From a virus: a DNA stretch of 20,595 bases. This document shows positions 1,880 through 20,595 of the stretch, piece after piece. The position numbers and the translations under genes were made by a program. The notes under the pieces were generated by a model, which was not told the origin of the DNA, did no database searches, and saw nothing but the letters and a program-made list of their open reading frames with translations. Each line of letters starts with the position of its first letter. Positions within the stretch are counted from its first letter, which is position 1. The DNA lies in IMG/VR virus record IMGVR_UViG_3300030450_001490, positions 1 to 20,595 of that record. One strand, written 5' to 3'.

Positions 1880-1890
1880 GCACGTTTTAT

Positions 1891-1917
1891 GGGGACTCTT
1901 CGGAGTCCTCTTTTTTT
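1891..1917 (+). terminator. Intrinsic terminator with UUCG loop after capsid gene
   Basis: An 8-pair stem (1891-1898 with 1903-1910, one G-U pair) closes a C-UUCG-G tetraloop, an exceptionally stable loop, and is followed by seven T residues (1911-1917). It begins 11 bases after the capsid stop codon. T7 has its late terminator T-phi in the same place, after gene 10, where partial read-through sets the ratio of capsid to tail transcripts. The same role is inferred here, since no new promoter is evident before the tail genes. Confidence 0.88.
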
Positions 1918-1930
1918 ATATATTAATATT

Positions 1931-2560
1931 ATGCCTTTTCCAACCACTAATGCCACTGCCGAATTACCAGCTATAAATCAGATATTGTCATCATGTGGAC
2001 AGGCTCCTGTAACCACGTTGGACACAACCAACCCTGACGTTGCGATTGCATACGATACGTTATTACAGGTATCAAAAGAAATACAATCTGAAGGCTGGAC
2101 ATTTAATAAAGAATACCATTATGAAATAACTAGAGATTCTAATAATGAAATAGTAATACCAGCTAATATGCTGCAAATTAAACTTACTGATAACTCTTCT
2201 AATTCAGATTTCGATTGCGTAAGACGTAATGGTAAATTATATGACAGACATAACCACACATATGATCTATCAAAAATATCAGGAGATAATGTTGAATGCG
2301 ATATTACATGGGAATTTGATTGGGTAGATTTACCTGAACCCATACAGAACTTTATCGTATCAAGAACGGCATCTCTTGTGTCTCAAAGAATTATAGGTAA
2401 TGCAGATCAATACCAAATGCTACAACAACAAGAAGCATACGCAAGAGCAACCGCCTTAGAATATGAAACACAACAAGGTCAATATACTTTCTTTGGACAC
2501 CCACAAGGACAGCAAAACTTCTACCAAAGCTATCAACCTTTCCAAGCACTTAAAAGATAA
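1931..2560 (+). CDS. 11: Tail tubular protein A (T7 gp11-like)
   Basis: This 209-residue protein is the gatekeeper/adaptor ring that joins the portal to the nozzle in T7-like tails (T7 gp11 is 196 residues). The N-terminal helix pair is typical of the family: AINQILSSCGQAPVTTL, NPDVAIAYDTLLQVSKEIQS, then EGWTFNKE. The C-terminal helix carries FIVSRTASLVSQRIIGNADQ. The open frame extends upstream to an ATG at 1889, but that codon lies at the foot of the terminator hairpin and would add a low-complexity peptide. The ATG at 1931 (MPFPTTNATAELPAI) gives the family-like N-terminus. There is no clear Shine-Dalgarno before it (TATATATTAATATT). The last base of its stop is the first base of the tail tube B start, so the two are coupled. 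Confidence 0.92.
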   Translation: MPFPTTNATAELPAINQILSSCGQAPVTTLDTTNPDVAIAYDTLLQVSKEIQSEGWTFNKEYHYEITRDSNNEIVIPANMLQIKLTDNSSNSDFDCVRRNGKLYDRHNHTYDLSKISGDNVECDITWEFDWVDLPEPIQNFIVSRTASLVSQRIIGNADQYQMLQQQEAYARATALEYETQQGQYTFFGHPQGQQNFYQSYQPFQALKR

Positions 2561-5394
2561 TGCCTGCTGTAACTCAACGAATTGATAATTATTTAGGTGG
2601 AGTATCTAGACAATCTGATGATAAGAAACTTCCAGGTCAAGTCCGAGAGTGTCTTAATGGTTATCCTGATCCTACGTTTGGTTTAACTAAAAGACCAGGC
2701 TTTAAATGGATTGCTAACTTAGGTTCTGGTACTACATATGATTCCTGTAAATGGTTCTATATTGCCAGGGATGCTACAAATAAATATATAGGATGTATTA
2801 CTCCTAAACCAGGAGATGGTCCTCACGGAACTATAGCTATATGGAATGCTACTACAGGTGCAGCTTGTACTGTAACTGAAAATAGTACAGATTATAATTA
2901 CCTTACAGGTACTCGTACAAATTACCATATACTAAATTTACAAGATACATCTATAATTACAAATAATTTAATAACTATAACTAAACAAGCTGATCCCAGC
3001 TATGTAGCTAATAAACAAGCTACACTTGTATTAAGTGGATCAGCATTCAGTAATACTTATACTGTTATCATTGATGGTAACACAACTACTACAACTACAG
3101 ATAGTGATGATACTTATAGTGATGCTTTAACTAAAATTAAAGCCTCAATAGATGCTGCTAGTATATCAGGTATAACTGTAGTAAAATATAAGTCTACACT
3201 ACAAGTATCTAAAGCTTCTGCTATTGCTATCAGTGCAACTGGTGGTCCTCAAGGAGATTCTATCAGAGTCTTTCAAGATGAAGTAGATGGTATAGATGAA
3301 TTACCACTAGAGTCTTTCAATAATCATACAGTTAAAATAATAAATACTGCTAAGTTAGATGAAGATTCATACTGGGTTAAATTCTCAGCAAATGATGGTA
3401 CATCTGGACCAGGTTCATGGCCAGAAACTTTAGATCCTAGTAAGTCCCCAGGCTTAACTGCTTCTACTATGCCTCATCAATTAGTCAATACTGGTACCAA
3501 TGCTTTTACATTTAAAGCAGTTACTTGGACAGATAGATTAGTAGGTGATGATGTAACAAATGAACATCCTAGTTTCTTAGGTAATAAAATTCAACAAAGC
3601 TTCTTCCATAATAATAGATTAGGATTCTTATCAGAAGATAACGTATCAATGGGAAGAGCTGGTAAACGTTTTAATTTCTATTTTGAATCTGCTCAAACAG
3701 TTACAGATGCAGATCCAGTCGATTTAAGTTGTTCAACAATCAGACCTGCAGCTTTACATGCGGTGATTCCTACTACACAGGGCTTAGTACTCTTCAGTAA
3801 GAATCAGCAATTCCTCATGTCAGCTGATGATATGGTTTTAACACCAACAAAGACTACGATCAGAGCACTCTCTAACTATGAAGTAGATACAGAAATCGAT
3901 CCAGTAGATATAGGAACACATATAAACTTCTTAAGTAAAACGCCAAGCTACACTCGTATATTTGGTATGGCCACACGTGGTCAGGATGAAAACCCTCAAG
4001 TATTAGACGTTGGAAGAATCGTGAATGAGTGGGTACCCTCTACAGTGGATACGTTCATTGCTAGCCCTCAGAATCAATTCCTCGCATTGTCAAGTCAATC
4101 TTCTGACAAGGTATATTTCTATCGTACATATAATGACGGAGAAAAGAACCTAATACAAGCGTGGTTTAATTGGCAACTACCAGGAAATGTTCAAACAATA
4201 TTTGTTGACTCAGATGATTTATTTGCAGTCACTAAACAAGGTACACAATTTACATTAAGTAAATCAAGTTTAAGTCAGAGTCCAGAAGATGCTATTATTG
4301 TCAGTAACCAAGGTCAAAAAATTAATCCTTGTATAGATCTCTATGCTTCTGCTAGTAATGTAGCAGCTAATAATAAAGTAGATTATGATGCTACTAATGA
4401 CTTCTCTAAATGTTTTATACCATGGGATAATATCACTAGCTTAACACCTGTTATTGTTATTAAAGGTACTACAGCTACAGGTCAGTTCATTGAATCTGGT
4501 TTCACTACTACACCAACTGTAGTAACAGATGATGGTGATCCTTACTTTAAAGTTGTAGGTAAAGATTTAACAAGTGTTGAAGATGATGTTATCGTAGGAT
4601 GGAAATATGACTTTGATGTAATCTTACCTAAAACATACTTTAGATTAGATGATGCACAGACTCAAAGTGATCATAGTGCTGCTTTAACTGTAGCAAGAAT
4701 GAAATTTGCTGTTGGTCTTTCAGGTGTGATGGGTTTTAAAGTTAAATCTACTGGTGTAAGACAAGGTAAAAAGACTTATACTGGTGATTATACTACAACT
4801 GATTTCCCATTTATTAATGATGATATAGATTATATTGATAGAGATCAGGTAAAAGTAAGAATAAATAATATTGTATCAACTGCATTTACTTTTGTTAATG
4901 ATACAACTATTAGACTTAACTCTATTCCCTCTCAAACATTTACAGCTAGTTCTGGTGCTACTACCTTTACTTGGACATTTGATAGAACAGATGTTACTAA
5001 GATAAAAGTATTAAAAGAAACTGGTAATGGTACTAACTTATATACTACTCAAACAGAAGGTACACATTATAGAATAACAGGTAAGAATGTTATCTTCATT
5101 GATGGTACTGGAGCCCCTGCTGCAGTTACAACAGGTGCTAGAGTTATAGTATATAGTGCAGATGATATAGTAATATACTTAGACGAGTGGTATAACTTAA
5201 CACCTACTCAAATAGCAGATACTTATTTAGCTAATGATATCGCCCTATCAGAGCAATCAGTATTTGTATTACCTATACATCAAAAAACAGAAAACTTTCA
5301 AGTGAGATTATTTAATGACTCACCATTCCCTGTATCTTTAAACTCAATGATGTGGGAAGGTAATTATTCACCACGGTTCTATAAGAGGTTATAA
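2560..5394 (+). CDS. 12: Tail tubular protein B, nozzle (T7 gp12-like), enlarged
   Basis: This is the nozzle of the short tail, which in T7 binds below gp11 and anchors the fibres. The start is typical of the family: DNYLGGVSRQSDDKKLPGQV near residue 8 and KRPGFKW near 43. The central propeller-like region contains HNNRLGFLSEDNV and GLVLFSKNQQFLM, and the protein ends with FQVRLFNDSPFPVSLNSMMW and GNYSPRFYKRL, matching the gp12 C-terminus. At 944 residues it is about 150 longer than T7 gp12 (794). The extra length appears to lie at about residues 740-870, where two tandem stretches resemble the virion-docking head of T7-type fibres (YTGDYTTTDFPF...AFTFVNDTTIRLNSIP, then FTWTFDRTDVTKIKVLKETG...ARVIVY). 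Residues 145-245 form another Thr-rich domain. It starts in a TAATG overlap with the gp11-like gene. Confidence 0.93.
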   Translation: MPAVTQRIDNYLGGVSRQSDDKKLPGQVRECLNGYPDPTFGLTKRPGFKWIANLGSGTTYDSCKWFYIARDATNKYIGCITPKPGDGPHGTIAIWNATTGAACTVTENSTDYNYLTGTRTNYHILNLQDTSIITNNLITITKQADPSYVANKQATLVLSGSAFSNTYTVIIDGNTTTTTTDSDDTYSDALTKIKASIDAASISGITVVKYKSTLQVSKASAIAISATGGPQGDSIRVFQDEVDGIDELPLESFNNHTVKIINTAKLDEDSYWVKFSANDGTSGPGSWPETLDPSKSPGLTASTMPHQLVNTGTNAFTFKAVTWTDRLVGDDVTNEHPSFLGNKIQQSFFHNNRLGFLSEDNVSMGRAGKRFNFYFESAQTVTDADPVDLSCSTIRPAALHAVIPTTQGLVLFSKNQQFLMSADDMVLTPTKTTIRALSNYEVDTEIDPVDIGTHINFLSKTPSYTRIFGMATRGQDENPQVLDVGRIVNEWVPSTVDTFIASPQNQFLALSSQSSDKVYFYRTYNDGEKNLIQAWFNWQLPGNVQTIFVDSDDLFAVTKQGTQFTLSKSSLSQSPEDAIIVSNQGQKINPCIDLYASASNVAANNKVDYDATNDFSKCFIPWDNITSLTPVIVIKGTTATGQFIESGFTTTPTVVTDDGDPYFKVVGKDLTSVEDDVIVGWKYDFDVILPKTYFRLDDAQTQSDHSAALTVARMKFAVGLSGVMGFKVKSTGVRQGKKTYTGDYTTTDFPFINDDIDYIDRDQVKVRINNIVSTAFTFVNDTTIRLNSIPSQTFTASSGATTFTWTFDRTDVTKIKVLKETGNGTNLYTTQTEGTHYRITGKNVIFIDGTGAPAAVTTGARVIVYSADDIVIYLDEWYNLTPTQIADTYLANDIALSEQSVFVLPIHQKTENFQVRLFNDSPFPVSLNSMMWEGNYSPRFYKRL

Positions 5395-13151: not shown

Positions 13152-15779
13152 ATGGCTGTTACACAAAACTCATACGTTGGGAACGGGTCTACCACCACCT
13201 ATTCCTTTACATTTCCATATCTTAAGTCTGCAGATATAAAAGCTCAAATTGATGCCACCGTAACAACAGCTTTCACCCTTCCAACTGCAACGACATTACA
13301 ATTTAATACTGCGCCAGGTAATGGCACCAAAATCAAAATATACCGAGAAACGAGTGACGATGCGCTTACAGCTACATTCTATGCAGGATCAGCTATTAAG
13401 TCGGAAGACCTGAACGATAACTTCACACAGAACTTATATTCGACACAAGAGATTAGTGCTAGATATCTAAGTAACCTTGGTGGTACCATGGTCGGAGATA
13501 TGACTATGGCAGAAGATGTAGATGTTATATTTGAAGGAGCTACAGATGATGCTTATGAAACAAGATTAACAGTAGTTGATCCTACAGCTGATAGAACTAT
13601 AAGCTTACCTAATGAGACAGGTACAGTATTAACGACTGGTAGTACTGGAGCTGTAACCTCATCTATGATAACTGATGGTACAATTGCTACAGCTGATATA
13701 GCTAATGATGCTATAAACGGAACAAAGATAGCAGATGATTCTATTGATTCGGAACACATAGTTGCTGATTCTATAGATGCAGAGCATTATGCAGCTGGGT
13801 CTGTAGATGCTACAGCTTTAGCAAGTAATGCAGTTACTACTGCAAAGATTGCAGCTGATGCTATAGATGGTACTAAGATTGCAGATAATGCTATCAATTC
13901 TGAACATTATACTGATGGTTCAATAGATACTATTCATATTGCTGATGATCAAATAACAGCAGATAAATTAGCTAATACAGCTGTAACTGCTGGATCTTAT
14001 ACTGCTGCTGATATTACTGTTGATGCACAAGGTAGATTAACTGCTGCTGCTAGTGGTACTGTAGGTACTTCTGAGATTGCAGCTGATGCAATTACAAGTG
14101 GATTAATAGCTGATAATGCCGTAGGAACTGAACATATTGCCGATGCTGAACTCACAACGCTTGCTGGTATGCAGTCAGGTACTGCTTCTGTCTTGGCGGG
14201 CGGGACTGCTCTTGCTGCTACTCTTACTGAAATTAATACAGTATGTGACGGTAAAGGCGTTCACACAACTATATCAGACAGTGATGCTCACTACCCAACT
14301 TCAGGAGCTGTTGTTGATTATGTTAGTACTCAGCTTGCTACAGTAGGTGGTTTTGAAACTATCACTACTGATGCTGCATTCCCTAACACACAACCAGCTA
14401 GCGGTATTATAGTTAGTATTGCAGATGCTGGAGGACTTGTTGTAAATGGATCTGGTGTTAGTACTACAGGTAGAACTGTAGGTGGCTCAACTGTAACTAT
14501 TAATGGTATAAATTCTCAATTCTATAGCAAAACTGTTGCAGCTGGTGTTGCTATGATGGTTGAGTCTACTGGTTCAGGTCAGATATATAACTACCATAAA
14601 GCTACACTTAAAGAAGCAGACTTAATCAATTTAAGTACTGATATAGAAGACTTTGGTAATAGATATAGAACAGCTACTAATAGAACATCAGATGGAGACT
14701 CATCTAATGATGATGGAGATTTATTCTATGATCAAACTGCCAATAAAATGTATGTCCATGATGGATCTACATGGGGTGAAGTAGCATCTACAGGTGAGTT
14801 TAAATTACTATTCTTATGTCCTGCAGGTGGTACAGGAGCACCAACTCTTGACGGTAGTATTGCTACATATGACTTAAGAGAAGCTAGTAATTCAGGTGCA
14901 GTTGCTGATGTAAGTGTTGCAGCACAATTACTTGTTAGTATAGATGGTGTTATACAGAAAGCTAATACTGGTACTAGTGCGCCTGCTGAAGGCTTTGCAT
15001 TAGTAGATACGAATACAATTATATTTGGTGCAAACTTAGCTAGTGGTTCTAGTGTATTTATAGTACAGATAGGTTCTTCTGTAACAGTACCTACCCCTGG
15101 AGATAACTCAGTAACTACAGCTAAGATAAATACTGGTGCTGTAACTAATGCTAAGATAGCTGATGATACTATAGATGAAGCTAAATTAGATATACATGCA
15201 GCTCCTACTGGTACTGATAAATTCCTTAAATATACCTCTAATGGTATGGAATGGGTCGTACCTAGTTATACAACTAATACTAATACTCAACTAACAGAAG
15301 AGCAGGTAGAAGATTTTGTAGGAGGTATGGTCACTGGTAATACTGAAACAGGTATTACAGTAACCTATGAAGACGGTGATGGTACATTAGATTTTGTTAC
15401 TGAAGTCACGCTTGCTGGTGCTAATACATTTACTGGTGTTAAAACCTTTAATGCTGCAGCTATTGGTGAAGTAACTACTATTACTTCTTCAAGTAATTCT
15501 ACAGCTTTAGATTTATCTGGAAGTAATAATTTCCAAATAACTTTAGGTGAAAATAGTACTGTTGCTCAACCTACTAACCAAGTAGCTGGTCAATCTGGAT
15601 CTATCTTTGTAACACAAGATGGTACAGGTTCTAGAACTTTAGCATATCATGCTGACTTTAAGTGGGCTGGAGGTACTGCACCAACATTATCAACAGCTGC
15701 TAACTCTGTAGACAGAATAGATTATGTAGTTGCTGCTGCTAATAAGATACATGCAGTAGCTAGTTTAGATGTGAAGTGA
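13152..15779 (+). CDS. 17: Tail fibre protein with T7 gp17-type head domain
   Basis: This 875-residue protein is the primary receptor-binding fibre. Residues 1-105 are the T7 gp17-type head that docks onto the tail: YVGNGSTTTYSFTFPYLKSA, TLQFNTAPGNGTKIKIYRET, then AGSAIKSEDLNDNFTQNLYS, equivalent to the gp17 DGSILRAYDLNVAQIQ segment. Residues 171-280 are degenerate shaft repeats. A GC-richer ELTTLAGMQSGTASVLAGGT module follows near 336, then a domain with DGDLFYDQTANKMYVHDGS (about 520-540), a second short repeat patch (652-685), an FLKYTSNGMEWV linker, and a C-terminal beta domain (about 770-875) with GQSGSIFVTQDGTGSRTLAY. Beyond the head no similarity to T7 is visible, as expected for a modular fibre. 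Codon composition shifts from mixed to strongly AT-rich after about 13500. Confidence 0.9.
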   Translation: MAVTQNSYVGNGSTTTYSFTFPYLKSADIKAQIDATVTTAFTLPTATTLQFNTAPGNGTKIKIYRETSDDALTATFYAGSAIKSEDLNDNFTQNLYSTQEISARYLSNLGGTMVGDMTMAEDVDVIFEGATDDAYETRLTVVDPTADRTISLPNETGTVLTTGSTGAVTSSMITDGTIATADIANDAINGTKIADDSIDSEHIVADSIDAEHYAAGSVDATALASNAVTTAKIAADAIDGTKIADNAINSEHYTDGSIDTIHIADDQITADKLANTAVTAGSYTAADITVDAQGRLTAAASGTVGTSEIAADAITSGLIADNAVGTEHIADAELTTLAGMQSGTASVLAGGTALAATLTEINTVCDGKGVHTTISDSDAHYPTSGAVVDYVSTQLATVGGFETITTDAAFPNTQPASGIIVSIADAGGLVVNGSGVSTTGRTVGGSTVTINGINSQFYSKTVAAGVAMMVESTGSGQIYNYHKATLKEADLINLSTDIEDFGNRYRTATNRTSDGDSSNDDGDLFYDQTANKMYVHDGSTWGEVASTGEFKLLFLCPAGGTGAPTLDGSIATYDLREASNSGAVADVSVAAQLLVSIDGVIQKANTGTSAPAEGFALVDTNTIIFGANLASGSSVFIVQIGSSVTVPTPGDNSVTTAKINTGAVTNAKIADDTIDEAKLDIHAAPTGTDKFLKYTSNGMEWVVPSYTTNTNTQLTEEQVEDFVGGMVTGNTETGITVTYEDGDGTLDFVTEVTLAGANTFTGVKTFNAAAIGEVTTITSSSNSTALDLSGSNNFQITLGENSTVAQPTNQVAGQSGSIFVTQDGTGSRTLAYHADFKWAGGTAPTLSTAANSVDRIDYVVAAANKIHAVASLDVK
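13662..13990 (+). repeat. Degenerate shaft repeats in the tail fibre
   Basis: About 110 residues are built from short repeating units on the pattern D-x-I-D/N-x-x-K/H-I-A-D. Examples are NDAINGTKIADD, DSIDSEHIVAD, DSIDAEHYAAG, DAIDGTKIADN, NAINSEHYTDG and GSIDTIHIADD. Units are 9-12 residues with drifting DNA sequence, so the repeat is clear in protein but weak in DNA. Such repeats usually build trimeric beta-helical shafts; that structure is inferred. The same motif recurs at residues 652-685 of this protein and in the short fibre-like gene at 18699. Confidence 0.8.
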
Positions 15780-15780
15780 T

Positions 15781-18243
15781 ATGGGAGTATTAAACGATAA
15801 TATACGAATGGGCGCCAGTGCGGCTAGTGCCTATGAAATAAAAAAATCTTGTAGATTTGACTTTGATAGTTCTACATACATGGAACGTACAGTTTCAAGT
15901 GCTAGTAATCGAAGAACTAATACTATTAGTGTTTGGCTTAAACGATCACAATTAGGCAATAAATCTGGCGATGATGCTCAAACTATTTATGGTGCTGGAG
16001 GTGGAGGCGGTGGCTCTTCATCAACTTCTCTATATATACTTACGGATGGTCGTATAGGTCTTTTGACTATGATCGGTAGTGTACATGGTCATCTTGTAAC
16101 TACTGCGGTTTTTAGAGACCCAGCACAGTGGTATCACGTTGTTGTAGTATTTGATACTGAAAACGGTACATCAGGTGATAGGATGAGGTTATATGTTAAT
16201 GGAGTTAGAATTACAGCTTTTGGTACTGAAACTTATCCAAGTCAAAATCAAGATACATATTTACATTATACAGATAAACATGGTTTAGGAGCTAATAGAA
16301 TTTGGGCTGATCAATCACAAATATATAACTATTATGGTGGTTATATGGCTGAACTACATGTTGTTGATGGATCTGCTTTAACACCAAGTTCTTTTGGTGA
16401 AACAAATGAAACTACAGGACAATGGATTCCTATAGAATATACAGGATCACATGGTACAAATGGATTCTATATGGACTTCTCCAATGCTTCTTCATTAGGA
16501 GATGATGCAGCAGGAAGTAATGACTATACAGAAAGTGGTTTTGCAACTAATGATTCATTTAAAGATACTCCAACTAATAACTTTCCAGTTTTAAATCCTT
16601 TAAATAATGATCCCTATGATTCAAATTCATATACTCCTGCAACCATAAGCAATGGAAATCTTCAATTTACATCAAATACAACTTCTCTTAGCAATTACGC
16701 TGAAAGTAGTATTTATTTTCCAACTTCTGGTAAATGGTATGTTGAAGTTACCGCCAGTAATGTAAATATTGCGTCTAGTGGTTATGCAGAGATTAACATA
16801 GCTGGTTATTATCTTTGGTGGTATTATTCTTCTCCTTATTATCAACTAACCACAGACGGCGGGGCACAAACTATAGGTGCTATTTCAAATAATGATGTTA
16901 TACAGGTTGCTTATGATGTTGGTTCAGGAAAGATTTGGTACGGAAAAAATAACACTTGGTATTTAAGTGGGAATCCTTCAGACGGAACAGCAATGTCACC
17001 AGCACAATCAGCTTCTAATACTGATGGTTCTGTAAAACTACATTTAAAAGGAAGATCGGGAAGTGCTGCGAATATCTTACATGTTAATTTTGGCCAACAA
17101 GATTTTACTCATACACCACCAACAGGATTTAAAGCATTATGTACAAAGAATCTACCTGAACCAACAATTACAAAAGGTACTGATCATTTCGGTACTTTAT
17201 TATATACAGGATCTGCAAGTGCTCAAGTTGTTAATGGATTAGATTTTACTCCTGATTTATGGGTTAATAAATATAGAGAGGGAAATTCCCATGTACTTTG
17301 GATAGATAGAGTAAGAGGATTTAATGCTCAAACTCAAATGCTTACCTCTATATATACTTCACCAGAAGGTGGTGAACGAGGTGATCTTTATGGTTATCTA
17401 ATTTCTGCAGCTGGTGGTTTTCAACATCAACCAGGTAGTAGTTCAGGAAACGAATACGCACAAATGAACTCTAGTGGAGCCAAATTTCTTACCTGGTGCT
17501 GGTTAGCAGATGGTACTTCTGGAAGTAGCAATGATGATGGAGATATAACATCAACAGTTAGTGCTAATACATCAGCTGGGTTCTCTATTGTTAAATATAC
17601 AGGAACAGGAACAGATTCAGATACAGTTGGTCATGGATTAGGTGTTGCACCGCAATTAATTATAATTAAACGAAGAGACGATGGATCTGGTAATACAAAC
17701 TGGCGTGTTTGGCATACAGGTATTCCTGCTAATACCCATTTAGAACTAAACAGTACTAGTGGACAACAAACATCACCAGCAGGTATATTTGATAGCTCAA
17801 CTCCTCCTACAAGTACAGTATTCAGACCTAATGATCATGTTTCGGTAAACGCATCAGGAGGTACTTATGTTGCTTACTGTTGGTCAGAAGTAGCAGGTTA
17901 TTCAAGTTTTGGTACATATGCAGGTAATGGAAGTACAGATGGACCTTTTATTTATACTGGATTCAAACCAGCTTGGCTTTGTGTAAAACATTATAATAGT
18001 AGCGGATCTGAACAATGGCAAGTCTTTGATAATGTTAGAGATACTGACAATGTTAATGTAACTAGTACTACATTAGGATCAAACCAACAAGAAGGTGTTG
18101 ATACTGGAGGAGATAAAATTGTTGACTTCCTTTCTAATGGTTTTAAATTTAAAGGAGGAGATGGAGTTCTAAATGATGGAAGTTTAAATTATATTTATTG
18201 GGCTTTTGCCGAAACACCTTTTAAATATGCTAATGCGGAGTAA
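15781..18243 (+). CDS. LamG- and SPRY-containing adhesin / tail-fibre-like protein
   Basis: This 820-residue protein begins one base after the fibre stop. Domains by eye: residues 20-215 a LamG/concanavalin-like jelly roll (TISVWLKRSQLG; WYHVVVVFDTENG; RMRLYVNGVRI near 140), about 300-445 an SPRY-like fold (GKWYVEVTASN at 316; VAYDVGSGKIWYGKNNTWYL near 376-395), a junction (DFTHTPPTGFKALC), then three related units starting near 469, 600 and 707, each with a YTG/YAG turn, a hydrophobic P-x-L-x-x-x-K strand and a W-containing strand. It ends in YIYWAFAETPFKYANAE. LamG and SPRY domains bind sugars or proteins, so a receptor-binding role on the virion surface is inferred. It has no T7-type head domain, so it would have to attach through another protein. 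It could be distal fibre material or a separate spike. Confidence 0.8.
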   Translation: MGVLNDNIRMGASAASAYEIKKSCRFDFDSSTYMERTVSSASNRRTNTISVWLKRSQLGNKSGDDAQTIYGAGGGGGGSSSTSLYILTDGRIGLLTMIGSVHGHLVTTAVFRDPAQWYHVVVVFDTENGTSGDRMRLYVNGVRITAFGTETYPSQNQDTYLHYTDKHGLGANRIWADQSQIYNYYGGYMAELHVVDGSALTPSSFGETNETTGQWIPIEYTGSHGTNGFYMDFSNASSLGDDAAGSNDYTESGFATNDSFKDTPTNNFPVLNPLNNDPYDSNSYTPATISNGNLQFTSNTTSLSNYAESSIYFPTSGKWYVEVTASNVNIASSGYAEINIAGYYLWWYYSSPYYQLTTDGGAQTIGAISNNDVIQVAYDVGSGKIWYGKNNTWYLSGNPSDGTAMSPAQSASNTDGSVKLHLKGRSGSAANILHVNFGQQDFTHTPPTGFKALCTKNLPEPTITKGTDHFGTLLYTGSASAQVVNGLDFTPDLWVNKYREGNSHVLWIDRVRGFNAQTQMLTSIYTSPEGGERGDLYGYLISAAGGFQHQPGSSSGNEYAQMNSSGAKFLTWCWLADGTSGSSNDDGDITSTVSANTSAGFSIVKYTGTGTDSDTVGHGLGVAPQLIIIKRRDDGSGNTNWRVWHTGIPANTHLELNSTSGQQTSPAGIFDSSTPPTSTVFRPNDHVSVNASGGTYVAYCWSEVAGYSSFGTYAGNGSTDGPFIYTGFKPAWLCVKHYNSSGSEQWQVFDNVRDTDNVNVTSTTLGSNQQEGVDTGGDKIVDFLSNGFKFKGGDGVLNDGSLNYIYWAFAETPFKYANAE

Positions 18244-18245
18244 AA

Positions 18246-18698
18246 ATGGCATTTAAACTAGACGGAAAAACATTACCAGTTGATGTCGCCTTTACATCAG
18301 CAGGTATAAATTACCCAGCGAATTGGTTACGACTAACTACGTTGGATGAAAAAAAGGCAATAGGTATAACAGAAGTAGCTGATCCAGCTAAATATGATGA
18401 ACGTTTCTATTGGGGTGTAGATGATCCTAGAGATCTTACACAACTAAAAAGAACTTGGTTACAGATCCAGAAAAATACTGCAGATACTTTATTATCTAAA
18501 TATGACTGGTATGTAACACGTAAAGCTGAGAAAGGTACAGAGATACCTGATACCATACAAATCTATAGAGATGGTGTTAGAACAGCTTGTAATGCTAGAG
18601 AAGTACAAGTAAATGGTTGTAATAATGTAGATTCATTGAAAGCATACGCTGATGGAGAATTCACTCCTTGGCCAACAGACCCTAATGGAGAATTATAA
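18246..18698 (+). CDS. Tail-fibre assembly chaperone-like protein
   Basis: This 150-residue protein lies two bases after the LamG adhesin, with GGAG five bases before the ATG. The N-terminal half holds LDGKTLPVDVAFTSAGINYP and WLRLTTLDEKKAIGITEVAD followed by YDERFYWG. The second half carries WLQIQKNTADTLLSKYDWYV and a K-x-E-x-G-x-x-I-P-x-x-I-x-x-YRDGVR stretch, the pattern seen in small phage tail-assembly chaperones (R-x-x-x-x-LL-x-x-x-DW, then IP and YR-x-x-x-R). These proteins usually lie next to the fibre they help fold, which fits its place between two adhesin genes. Assignment is by pattern only; a structural virion protein is the alternative. Confidence 0.6.
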   Translation: MAFKLDGKTLPVDVAFTSAGINYPANWLRLTTLDEKKAIGITEVADPAKYDERFYWGVDDPRDLTQLKRTWLQIQKNTADTLLSKYDWYVTRKAEKGTEIPDTIQIYRDGVRTACNAREVQVNGCNNVDSLKAYADGEFTPWPTDPNGEL

Positions 18699-19169
18699 AT
18701 GGCACTAACACAAGTCAAAGCATTAGGTTTAACAGCTGATGCTATTGATGAAACAAAAATTGCTGATGATGGTATAGATTCAGAACACTATAATGATGGA
18801 TCTATTGATGAAGCTCATATAGCTGATAACCAAGTAAGTCTTGCTAAGATGGCAGGACTTGCTAGAGGTAAGATCATTTATGGTAATGCTTCTGGAGATC
18901 CTACAGCACTTGCTATAGGTAGTTCTGGGACAGTATTGAAATCCGATGGTACTGATGTATCATGGGGTGATGCTGCAGCTGGAGCTACAGGTGGAGGAAC
19001 TAATAAAATATTTTGGGAGAATGGAACAACAATAGATTATAACTACACCATAACTAATAATAAAAACGCCATGACTGCTGGACCTGTTGAGATTGCTGCT
19101 ACTGGAAACGGTGACGGCAGTGCTGTAGTAGTGACAGTAGGTGATGGCGAAACTTGGACAATCGTATAA
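18699..19169 (+). CDS. Short tail-fibre-like protein sharing the main fibre's shaft motif
   Basis: This 156-residue protein starts directly after the preceding stop; GGAG at 18687-18690 is a well-spaced ribosome site. Residues 12-50 contain DAIDETKIADDGIDSEHYND and GSIDEAHIADNQ, the same repeats as the main fibre shaft (KIADNAINSEHYTDGSID). Next come ARGKIIYGNASGDPTALAIG and GTVLKSDGTDVSWGD, a linker common in marine phage fibres, then a Gly/Ala-rich turn and a small beta-rich end (ATGNGDGSAVVVTVGDGETW). It lacks any head domain. It is likely a short accessory fibre or fibre-tip subunit. Shared shaft repeats suggest that it is derived from, or assembles with, the fibre encoded at 13152. Confidence 0.7.
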   Translation: MALTQVKALGLTADAIDETKIADDGIDSEHYNDGSIDEAHIADNQVSLAKMAGLARGKIIYGNASGDPTALAIGSSGTVLKSDGTDVSWGDAAAGATGGGTNKIFWENGTTIDYNYTITNNKNAMTAGPVEIAATGNGDGSAVVVTVGDGETWTIV

Positions 19170-19172
19170 ATT

Positions 19173-19679
19173 ATGGCAATAACAATTAATGGAAACGGTA
19201 CTGTCTCAGGTATAACCGCTGGATTAACAGCAGCAGCAATGCCAACAGGATCAATTATCCAGGTATCAGCTCAAGCATATGATTATACTTCAAGAACACT
19301 TACTTCGACTAGTTATGTTAAACTTACTACAGATTTGGATGTTACGATAACTCCAACAGCTAGTAATAGCAAGATTTTACTTTTAGGTCAAGTGTCTTTT
19401 GGAATGAATTATTCTGATGATAGTCAAGGTTTTGCAGTATTCAGAGATAGTACAGAACTTAAAGGAATTGCAGTTGCTGCTGCAGAATCTACTAATAATA
19501 ATAAGGTTGGTATGACTGGCTTTTCTGTATTAGATGCTCCTGGTGATACAAGTGCTCATACATATAGTATTTTTGGTAAAGTTGCAAGTGGTTATGAGCT
19601 TTACTTAAACTATGCACCAGGTTATGGTAATCTTGTTACTGCTGGTACGTCATTAATAGCTTTGGAGGTAGCAGGATGA
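19173..19679 (+). CDS. Small adhesin-like protein A (EVAG paralogue)
   Basis: This 168-residue protein has an N-terminus of INGNGTVSGITAGLTAAAMP followed by a beta-rich domain: TSTSYVKLTTDLDVTITPTA, NSKILLLGQVSFG, FAVFRDSTELKGIAV, then PGDTSAHTYSIFGKVASGY and the end SLIALEVAG. The same domain order and end occur in the next gene, so the two are paralogues. Small domains of this kind are common in marine phage fibre cassettes and are presumed distal receptor-binding modules. No Shine-Dalgarno precedes its ATG. Its last codons carry one for the next gene and the genes overlap by four bases (ATGA). Confidence 0.7.
   Translation: MAITINGNGTVSGITAGLTAAAMPTGSIIQVSAQAYDYTSRTLTSTSYVKLTTDLDVTITPTASNSKILLLGQVSFGMNYSDDSQGFAVFRDSTELKGIAVAAAESTNNNKVGMTGFSVLDAPGDTSAHTYSIFGKVASGYELYLNYAPGYGNLVTAGTSLIALEVAG
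19664..19669 (+). promoter_or_regulatory. Shine-Dalgarno inside the EVAG tail, for the 19676 gene
   Basis: GGAGGT, a consensus ribosome site, lies six bases before the ATG at 19676 and is also part of the codons for the final L-E-V-A-G of the upstream protein. It fixes the start of the next gene and implies translational coupling. Most other genes in the window lack such a strong site. Confidence 0.75.
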
Positions 19680-20317
19680 CATTAAAACTAAACGGCTCCT
19701 CATCAGGGAGCGTATCAATAGATGCTCCTGCTAGTACAACAGGTGGAGCAGATGTAACATTGAAACTACCTGTAGCAGATGGTTCAGCTAGCCAGTTATT
19801 AAAAACAGACGGTAGTGGAAACCTTGGATGGGGAACAGGTGGAAAAATTGTTGATATTAAGCAAGCGTTTAAAACAGATTACTTTACCTCATCGAGTACA
19901 TCTTATGTAGATATACCAGGCTTAACCATTACGCATACTCTTGCTGATAGTTCTAATAAATTATTACTTACTTTCCATGTTGTTATGGGTGCTGCTTGGT
20001 GGAATGCTAGTGTAACTTTTATTCAATTATTAAAGGATAGTACAGCTATTGCTGTTCCAACGCAATCAGGTCTAGATTCAGGTCTTACAGGTACTTCAAT
20101 GGCTTGTAATTATTCTAATAATGCTAATAATTCATCAGTGAACGTAAGTTTGATTACAGCTTCTTATTTATATACACCTGGCGATACAAGCTCTCATACT
20201 TATAAACTTCAAGGAAAGGTTTCAGGTGGCGCTTATAATTTCCGTGTTAACGGTGTTGAAGGTTACAGCACATATGGAGCAACAAGTACCTTGACTTTAA
20301 TGGAGGTAGCAGGTTAA
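19676..20317 (+). CDS. Small adhesin-like protein B (EVAG paralogue)
   Basis: This 213-residue protein starts in the ATGA overlap with its paralogue. The N-terminal 55 residues differ from protein A: MTLKLNGSSSGSVSIDAPAS, then VTLKLPVADGSASQLLKTDG and GNLGWG, the LLKTDG-x-G-x-x-x-W linker frequent in phage fibres. From residue 70 the domain parallels protein A: SSTSYVDIPGLTITHTLADS, NKLLLTFHVVMG, FIQLLKDSTAIAV, PGDTSSHTYKLQGKVSGGAY, and the end TLTLMEVAG. A shared fold with different loops suggests duplication followed by diversification of the binding surface. A receptor-binding role is inferred from context. Confidence 0.72.
   Translation: MTLKLNGSSSGSVSIDAPASTTGGADVTLKLPVADGSASQLLKTDGSGNLGWGTGGKIVDIKQAFKTDYFTSSSTSYVDIPGLTITHTLADSSNKLLLTFHVVMGAAWWNASVTFIQLLKDSTAIAVPTQSGLDSGLTGTSMACNYSNNANNSSVNVSLITASYLYTPGDTSSHTYKLQGKVSGGAYNFRVNGVEGYSTYGATSTLTLMEVAG
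20302..20307 (+). promoter_or_regulatory. Shine-Dalgarno inside the second EVAG tail, for the 20317 gene
   Basis: GGAGGT is placed nine bases before the ATG at 20317, which overlaps the upstream stop as TAATG. It lies in the same codons (M-E-V-A-G) as in the preceding paralogue, within an identical 12-base string GGAGGTAGCAGG. Confidence 0.72.
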
Positions 20318-20595
20318 TGGATCACGATGCAATTTTTAAAGCTTATCCTTCTATAGTCACTTTTGATGATTCATTTAAAACTTATGGATTAGATAAAGAT
20401 GGTAATAAAGTAGATATAGCTCAATCAAATATAGATGCAGCAAGGGTTACCTTGAATAATGAAGCAACAGCTACTAAATATCAAACAGATAGAGCTGATG
20501 CTTATCCTCCTTTAGAAGATCAATTAGATATGCAGTATTGGGACAAAAAGAATGGTACAACAACTTGGGTCGATGCCATTGCTAAAGTAAAATCA
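20317..20595 (+). CDS. Tail-fibre assembly-type protein, 5' part (runs off the window)
   Basis: The frame opens at the TAATG overlap and stays open for 93 codons to the window edge. It begins MDHDAIFKAYPSIVTFDDSF, continues through a charged helix (NIDAARVTLNNEATATKYQ), and reaches AYPPLEDQLDMQYWDKKNGT with TTWVDAIAKVKS at the edge. The YPxxxDQLDxxYWDKxNGTTxWxxAI signature is common in small proteins beside tail-fibre genes of marine phages, often annotated as tail-assembly or fibre-associated. It probably ends soon after the edge. It is not evidently paralogous to the 18246 gene, but the two together bracket the small adhesins. Confidence 0.65.
   Translation, partial: MDHDAIFKAYPSIVTFDDSFKTYGLDKDGNKVDIAQSNIDAARVTLNNEATATKYQTDRADAYPPLEDQLDMQYWDKKNGTTTWVDAIAKVKS

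Follow-up and report, generated by a model that had tools for sequence, protein, structure and literature searches.

A tail-fibre-head domain inserted in the nozzle protein of T7-like cyanophages, with a second, probably nested copy

The window analysed here is the whole of a 20,595-nucleotide stretch of viral DNA (IMG/VR record IMGVR_UViG_3300030450_001490, positions 1 to 20,595), and the nozzle, adaptor and tail fibre genes described below lie on its + strand. Positions 2560..5394 encode a nozzle protein of 944 aa (tail tubular protein B, the T7 gp12 homologue). It is covered by the Phage_nozzle profile PF25675 (E 5e-182), and a PDB sequence search with it returned P-SCSP1u gp23 and T7 gp12. 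The partner of the nozzle, the adaptor (tail tubular protein A, T7 gp11 homologue; PF17212, E 1.7e-38), is encoded directly upstream (1889..2560), and the gene order MCP, adaptor, nozzle is that expected for the family. The tail fibre gene (13152..15779, 875 aa) was identified by PF03906 and by PHROG tail-fibre families; residues 1-101 of its product (13152..13454) form the fibre head, including the docking-helix part (PF03906, E 1.8e-14). Among the related contigs 7 out of 10 contain psbA, so the clade consists of cyanophages.

Several accessory proteins are encoded after the fibre (15781-20595). The first of them, an 820-aa protein directly after the fibre gene (15781-18243), shows a DUF7483 match (E 3e-91) in the C-terminal half, and a 156-aa protein (18699-19166) has a repeat (DAIDETKIADDGIDSEHYNDGSID) that also occurs in the middle part of tail fibres of related phages. 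At the opposite end of the window, a partial ORF (2-337) that immediately precedes the capsid gene reads like a small outer-membrane beta-barrel, an unusual neighbour for a capsid gene.

The initial annotation of this DNA had pointed out that the nozzle is about 150 residues longer than T7 gp12, and the lengths bear this out (944 vs 794 aa). Nearly all of the excess is an insert of 143 residues (733-875; 4756..5184) in the C-terminal platform domain, since the nozzles of S-B28, S-SRP01 and T7 align without these residues. The insertion point is equivalent to T7 gp12 725/726. Alignment to the close cultured relatives S-B28 and S-SRP01 covers residues 1-732 and then everything from 876 onwards, with no counterpart for the residues in between. 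The insert is also missing from the nozzles of S-RIP1, P-SSP7, Syn5, S-RIP2, S45-C4, DSL-LC07 and HTVC025P. A profile search of the T7, P-SSP7, Syn5, S-RIP2, S45-C4, DSL-LC07 and HTVC025P nozzles detected no trace of the domain, and Pfam did not find PF03906 in those of T7, P-SSP7, S-RIP2, Syn5 and S-B28. The nozzles of S-RIP2, P-SSP7 and Syn5 (L179, L180 and L181) are themselves longer than T7 gp12, at 905-981 aa, yet have no insert; the additional residues are found towards the N-terminus, ahead of Pfam nozzle position ~100-160, and gave no significant domain match. In T7 gp12 the first 45 residues join the C-terminal part in forming the platform jelly roll (PMC6702177), and in P-SCSP1u the nozzle platform contacts the fibre helices (PMC10575957).

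Two tandem fibre-head-like domains had been proposed initially for window positions 4780-5175 (residues 741-872), on the basis of motifs that are indeed found in the nozzle: YTGDYTTTDFPF begins at residue 740 and GARVIVYSADD finishes near residue 869. The place was correct and the unit slightly larger, running from 733 to 875; the presence of two domains also stands, and their tandem order does not, as described below. The profile-profile comparison with the fibre N-terminal domain proved significant, the predicted fold is fibre-head-like, and T7 gp12, inspected for the same region, has none.

The first of the two domains, domain 1, consists of a main part at residues 733-790 (4756..4929), which corresponds to PF03906 positions 10-63 and was recognized by the nozzle-insert profile, hhalign and fold, and of a last strand, DDIVIYLD, at residues 868-875 (5161..5184), which aligns with DKVLIYLD of one-domain nozzles. 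Its kinship with the fibre head can be seen within the same phage, where BLASTP aligned nozzle residues 733-873 with the fibre head at 31% identity over 54 aa (E 7e-7). PF03906 matched residues 739-792 with an E-value of 0.003 when the whole protein was searched and of 2.6e-4 with the fragment alone; at 21.1 bits, this match falls under the gathering cut-off of 25.2 bits. In relatives the same family was matched by 24 of 25 one-domain inserts, the best at 1e-9, and L024 reached 29.4 bits vs the cut-off of 25.2. Annotation pipelines miss the domains because individual matches often lie below the usual cut-offs. Matches of the fragment to PF05065 (capsid) and PF04266 (ASCH) were also below cut-off, and the relatives gave them no support.

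Searches with pooled sequences were more decisive. A profile of the relatives' nozzle inserts, built without the window sequence, picked out the nozzle insert at E 6.9e-29, the fibre head at 6.2e-16 and nothing else in the six-frame translation of the window. By hhalign, one-domain nozzle inserts matched fibre heads at 99.1% over 61 columns; column-shuffled profiles gave at most 7.3%, with scores never above 20 against the observed 38-100, and unrelated nozzle C-termini, used as a negative control, gave 0.2%. When a one-domain insert was compared by tblastn with 50,697 phages, the listed matches included one nozzle, that of MedDCM-S28-C3, and almost all the others were annotated as tail-fibre or similar genes. 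On this evidence, together with the predicted fold, domain 1 is homologous to the tail-fibre head, specifically to its PF03906 core.

No structure of an insert-bearing nozzle was found, and the fold was predicted with AlphaFold2. A one-domain insert (KEYTGDGSTTVFNWTEEDFKYIDKDQIKVQINGVVSSAFTVSGDTQVTMDSAPANNDKVLIYLD is an example of the type), modelled from an alignment without fibre sequences, reached a pLDDT of 88.8 and a pTM of 0.76. In a Foldseek search of the PDB with this model, the top eight matches were all N-termini of podophage tail fibres or adaptors (TMq 0.64-0.73, rmsd 2.2-3.4 A): HRP29 (TMq 0.64, rmsd 2.2), Kp7 (0.70), LME-1 (0.72), P-SCSP1u gp28 (0.73, rmsd 3.3), T7 gp17 (0.69, rmsd 3.0), two chains of Kp9, and T7 8dsp. 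The small size of the domain keeps the E-values modest (7e-4 to 4e-2). The two-domain model of the window had an overall pLDDT of 76.5, with 80-92 over most of the insert. It also retrieved fibre N-termini first from the PDB, with a large rmsd where the alignment spans both domains, and fibres and tailspikes from BFVD. The last strand of domain 1 is strand E66-71 in the one-domain model and strand E157-162 in the two-domain model. As modelled, nozzle domain 1 has the jelly-roll or beta-sandwich fold of the fibre head.

The nozzle copies differ from the fibre head in extent and position. They match PF03906, a profile of 157 positions, to position 62-64 only; the docking-helix part (profile ~64-157) is missing and the chain returns straight into the platform. 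Nor do they have the FPYL/R65 positions, which fibre heads conserve. The copies also sit inside the nozzle protein and not at the N-terminus of a trimeric tail fibre. Since they lack the docking-helix region, the nozzle domains are not complete attachment modules.

Domain 2 occupies residues 791-867 (4930..5160) and was defined by hhalign and by its absence, as a block, from one-domain relatives. In two-domain inserts this second unit lies between the penultimate strand of domain 1, which ends in TTIRLNSIP, and its last strand, DDIVIYLD. Because the last strand of domain 1 follows domain 2, the latter is placed inside the hairpin loop of domain 1; this nested arrangement is read from the sequence alignment, and nesting in three dimensions would follow from it. 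Plain tandem duplication was ruled out, as one-domain relatives show an uninterrupted domain 1 and the last strand comes after domain 2. Domain 2 exists in two flavours, 2a, which is that of the window (TFTWTFDRTD), and 2b (LSGNGSTKTFDLTF). By hhalign, 2a matched fibre heads at 89.5%, nozzle domain 1 at 95.9% and 2b at 97.1%, and 2b matched fibre heads at 96.2% and domain 1 at 98.4%. PF03906 was detected in 9 of 15 domains 2b and, weakly, in 3 of 17 domains 2a. Judged by these profile comparisons, the evidence is weaker than for domain 1 but consistent, and domain 2 is a more distant copy of the fibre-head domain. In the fibres of L012, L013, L079, L081 and L096, short insertions occur in a fibre-head hairpin loop (AP..NG), the same loop that hosts domain 2 in the nozzle.

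Scans of IMG/VR provided 134 distinct insert sequences, whose lengths fall into just three classes: 0-2 aa in 5 sequences, 60-79 aa in 89 and 130-159 aa in 40, and no intermediate or longer insert was seen. Every sampled nozzle has thus zero, one or two domains. Closely related phages can differ in this respect; L081, with two domains, and L096, with one, share 97.7% protein identity outside the insert, and their DNA aligns cleanly across the site save for the cassette, which takes the place of a few loop residues. A tree of the nozzle backbone, from which the insert had been removed, required at least 15 changes of architecture, mostly between one domain and 2a or 2b, and domain 1 was never lost within the main insert-bearing clade sampled. 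In the tree of the domains themselves, fibre heads formed one group (SH-aLRT 96) and 2a and 2b fell together on one side of a branch (93); a single change separates nozzle from fibre copies, in an alignment of only 69 columns in which many forks are weak. This topology fits one old capture rather than repeated shuffling from each phage's fibre. Recent shuffling from the phage's own fibre was also considered and is unsupported, as the domain tree, from a short alignment, splits fibre heads from nozzle copies.

Substitution rates indicated purifying selection in all parts of the nozzle. Domain 1 changes at about the rate of the nozzle core, domain 2a faster, and domain 2b slightly faster. Receptor-binding tips are usually hypervariable; domains 1 and 2 are not, and no binding signature was found in either. 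A separate pattern was noted in L252 and L095, with one-domain and two-domain nozzles, where the first half of domain 1 is almost identical and the sequences then diverge, which suggests recombination inside domain 1.

These observations can be combined in one explanation, to which we would assign a probability of roughly 0.6 as a whole. By sequence and predicted fold, the nozzle of this T7-like cyanophage clade has taken up the beta-sandwich core of the fibre head (PF03906) in a turn of its C-terminal platform domain, and in the lineage of the window a second, diverged copy sits within the hairpin loop of domain 1. The six copies in a virion would point away from the tube at the upper end of the nozzle; we infer this placement from their bulk, 8-16 kDa for each subunit, for which the DNA channel offers no room. 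Domain 1 would serve as a fixed structural element of the collar, close to the docking groove of the real fibre heads, and domain 2 as an exchangeable outer unit through which the phage modifies its contacts with the host surface or with adjacent tail parts, perhaps in the manner of the Ig-like decorations on siphophage tails. A further, tentative step, to which we give slightly less than even odds, is that the last hairpin loop of the fibre-head fold acts as a self-similar socket: the nozzle would first have gained one fibre-head domain, whose loop would later have served as the entry site for further copies, providing a switchable nested cassette that varies the surface of the ejection tube independently of the fibres.

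Other roles can be envisaged for the same domains. Domain 2 might be an adhesin in its own right, binding a glycan or protein of the host surface. Its presence or absence and its two diverged flavours among close relatives would agree with this, as would the somewhat faster amino-acid change in 2a, the carbohydrate-binding module at another nozzle insertion site in L072 (see below), and the weak carbohydrate binding that has been proposed, and is unproven, for Ig-like tail domains (PMC8718954). However, there is no convincing match to a known binding family, the domain is under purifying selection, and the precedent domains are dispensable in some phages (PMC8718954). Direct adhesion is on the unlikely side.

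The nozzle domains might instead brace the fibres, in line with the initial annotation's suggestion that they pack against the real fibre heads, contacting the fibre trimers or the adaptor dock and thereby fixing the fibre angle or strengthening attachment. Their fold is that of the fibre head, they are inserted in the very platform domain that touches the fibre helices in P-SCSP1u (PMC10575957), and domain 1, with its core-like rates, occurs in all nozzles sampled from the main insert-bearing clade. Such a brace is nevertheless unlikely, because the docking helix and the FPYL/R65 positions are missing from the nozzle copies and because nozzle and fibre vary separately. The fibre head of S-B28 belongs to the same family though its nozzle is without insert, and domain 2 differs without any change of fibre head in L081/L096 and L049/L063; among the cases compared, having or lacking the second domain bears no relation to the type of fibre head.

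It is quite unlikely that the domains are structurally neutral passengers, persisting without a role in a loop that tolerates insertion. The equivalent loop carries inserts in the fibre heads of L012, L013 and L079, domain 2 has been gained and lost frequently, and the FN3 extension of SPP1 is dispensable (PMC8718954), all of which a passenger would permit; purifying selection on both domains, and the retention of domain 1 throughout the main clade sampled, speak against it. The initial annotation had also suggested that the nozzle seats the extra adhesins encoded downstream of the fibre, an idea for which the several accessory proteins of the window speak. Profile searches and the six-frame search of the window found no fibre-head-like domain in these proteins, and among the few contigs that extend past the fibre accessory content does not follow the state of the nozzle: L007, with the same two-domain nozzle type as the window, is without the window's accessory set, L012 has part of it, and S28-C3, with one domain, has no homologues of the window accessory proteins. 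The idea found no support, and an adhesin socket is highly improbable. Chance or compositional likeness of Thr/Asn-rich beta strands, for which only the sub-threshold Pfam score of the window taken alone might speak, can be practically dismissed, being refuted for domain 1 and very unlikely for domain 2 by the shuffled and negative controls, the fold search and the PF03906 matches of the relatives.

Returning to the capture of a fibre-head core as an outward decoration, comparison with known systems shows both familiar and unusual traits. With T7 gp17 and other PF03906 proteins (7ey9; 8i4m_M, P-SCSP1u gp28), domain 1 shares a homologous beta-sandwich core of ~60 aa (TMq 0.69-0.73). The nozzle copy differs from them in being internal to the nozzle and without docking helix and stalk (profile 64-157), and in two-domain nozzles its hairpin loop harbours a second copy. 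The rest of the window protein is a full-length nozzle of the T7 gp12 type (PF25675; P-SCSP1u gp23, 8i4m), from which it differs by the insert, as T7, P-SSP7, Syn5, S-RIP2 and S-B28 have none at the equivalent of T7 725/726. The Ig-like or FN3 decorations of siphophage tail tubes (lambda gpV, T5 pb6, YSD1 domain2, SPP1 gp17.1; PMC8718954), which offer the closest analogy in function, are also added beta-sandwiches of variable presence. They face outward in those siphophages (PMC8718954), and an outward position would be expected here from size and insertion site; the present case differs in concerning the nozzle of a short-tailed phage, a domain of fibre-head-family origin, and nested copies. 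Family profile searches gave no Big_1, Big_2 or FN3 match for the nozzle inserts. The nearest annotated case is the tail tubular protein B of MedDCM-OCT-S28-C3 (AP013539), the sole nozzle detected among the listed annotated-phage matches, which has one copy at the same site, lacks the second domain, and is annotated simply as tail tubular protein B. Among annotated isolates, no cultured cyanopodovirus with the insert turned up. A literature search confined to open-licence papers found no account of a nozzle with a fibre-like domain. Domain insertions are known from phage tail proteins; the source of the domain and the nesting are unusual.

T7-like phages are commonly pictured with variable fibres that face the host and a nozzle that is a constant tube. 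Here a fibre-attachment module has moved into the tube protein and been maintained by selection throughout a broad cyanophage clade, and a nested second copy comes and goes between near-identical phages, an unexpected way to decorate a tail tube. If the domains are exposed, the nozzle would constitute a second modular surface to be considered in host-range and adsorption studies of these abundant marine phages, and natural pairs with and without the second domain are available for testing a decoration function.

A second insertion site occurs near nozzle residue 600 (window 4340-4440), where the propeller ends and the fibre dock starts. This site is expanded in L012-L015, L020, L022-L024, L058, L060, L072 and L073. 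In these relatives it holds ~75 aa of Gly-rich GGSGYTSAPTVTI..GGGGSGATATA repeats, and in L072 it reaches ~190 aa, the nozzle of this phage containing CBM_5_12 carbohydrate-binding modules in four stretches (E 2.8e-14). The existence of this other site, with its Gly-rich repeats and the CBM_5_12 modules of L072, makes the reading of the inserts as decorations more natural.
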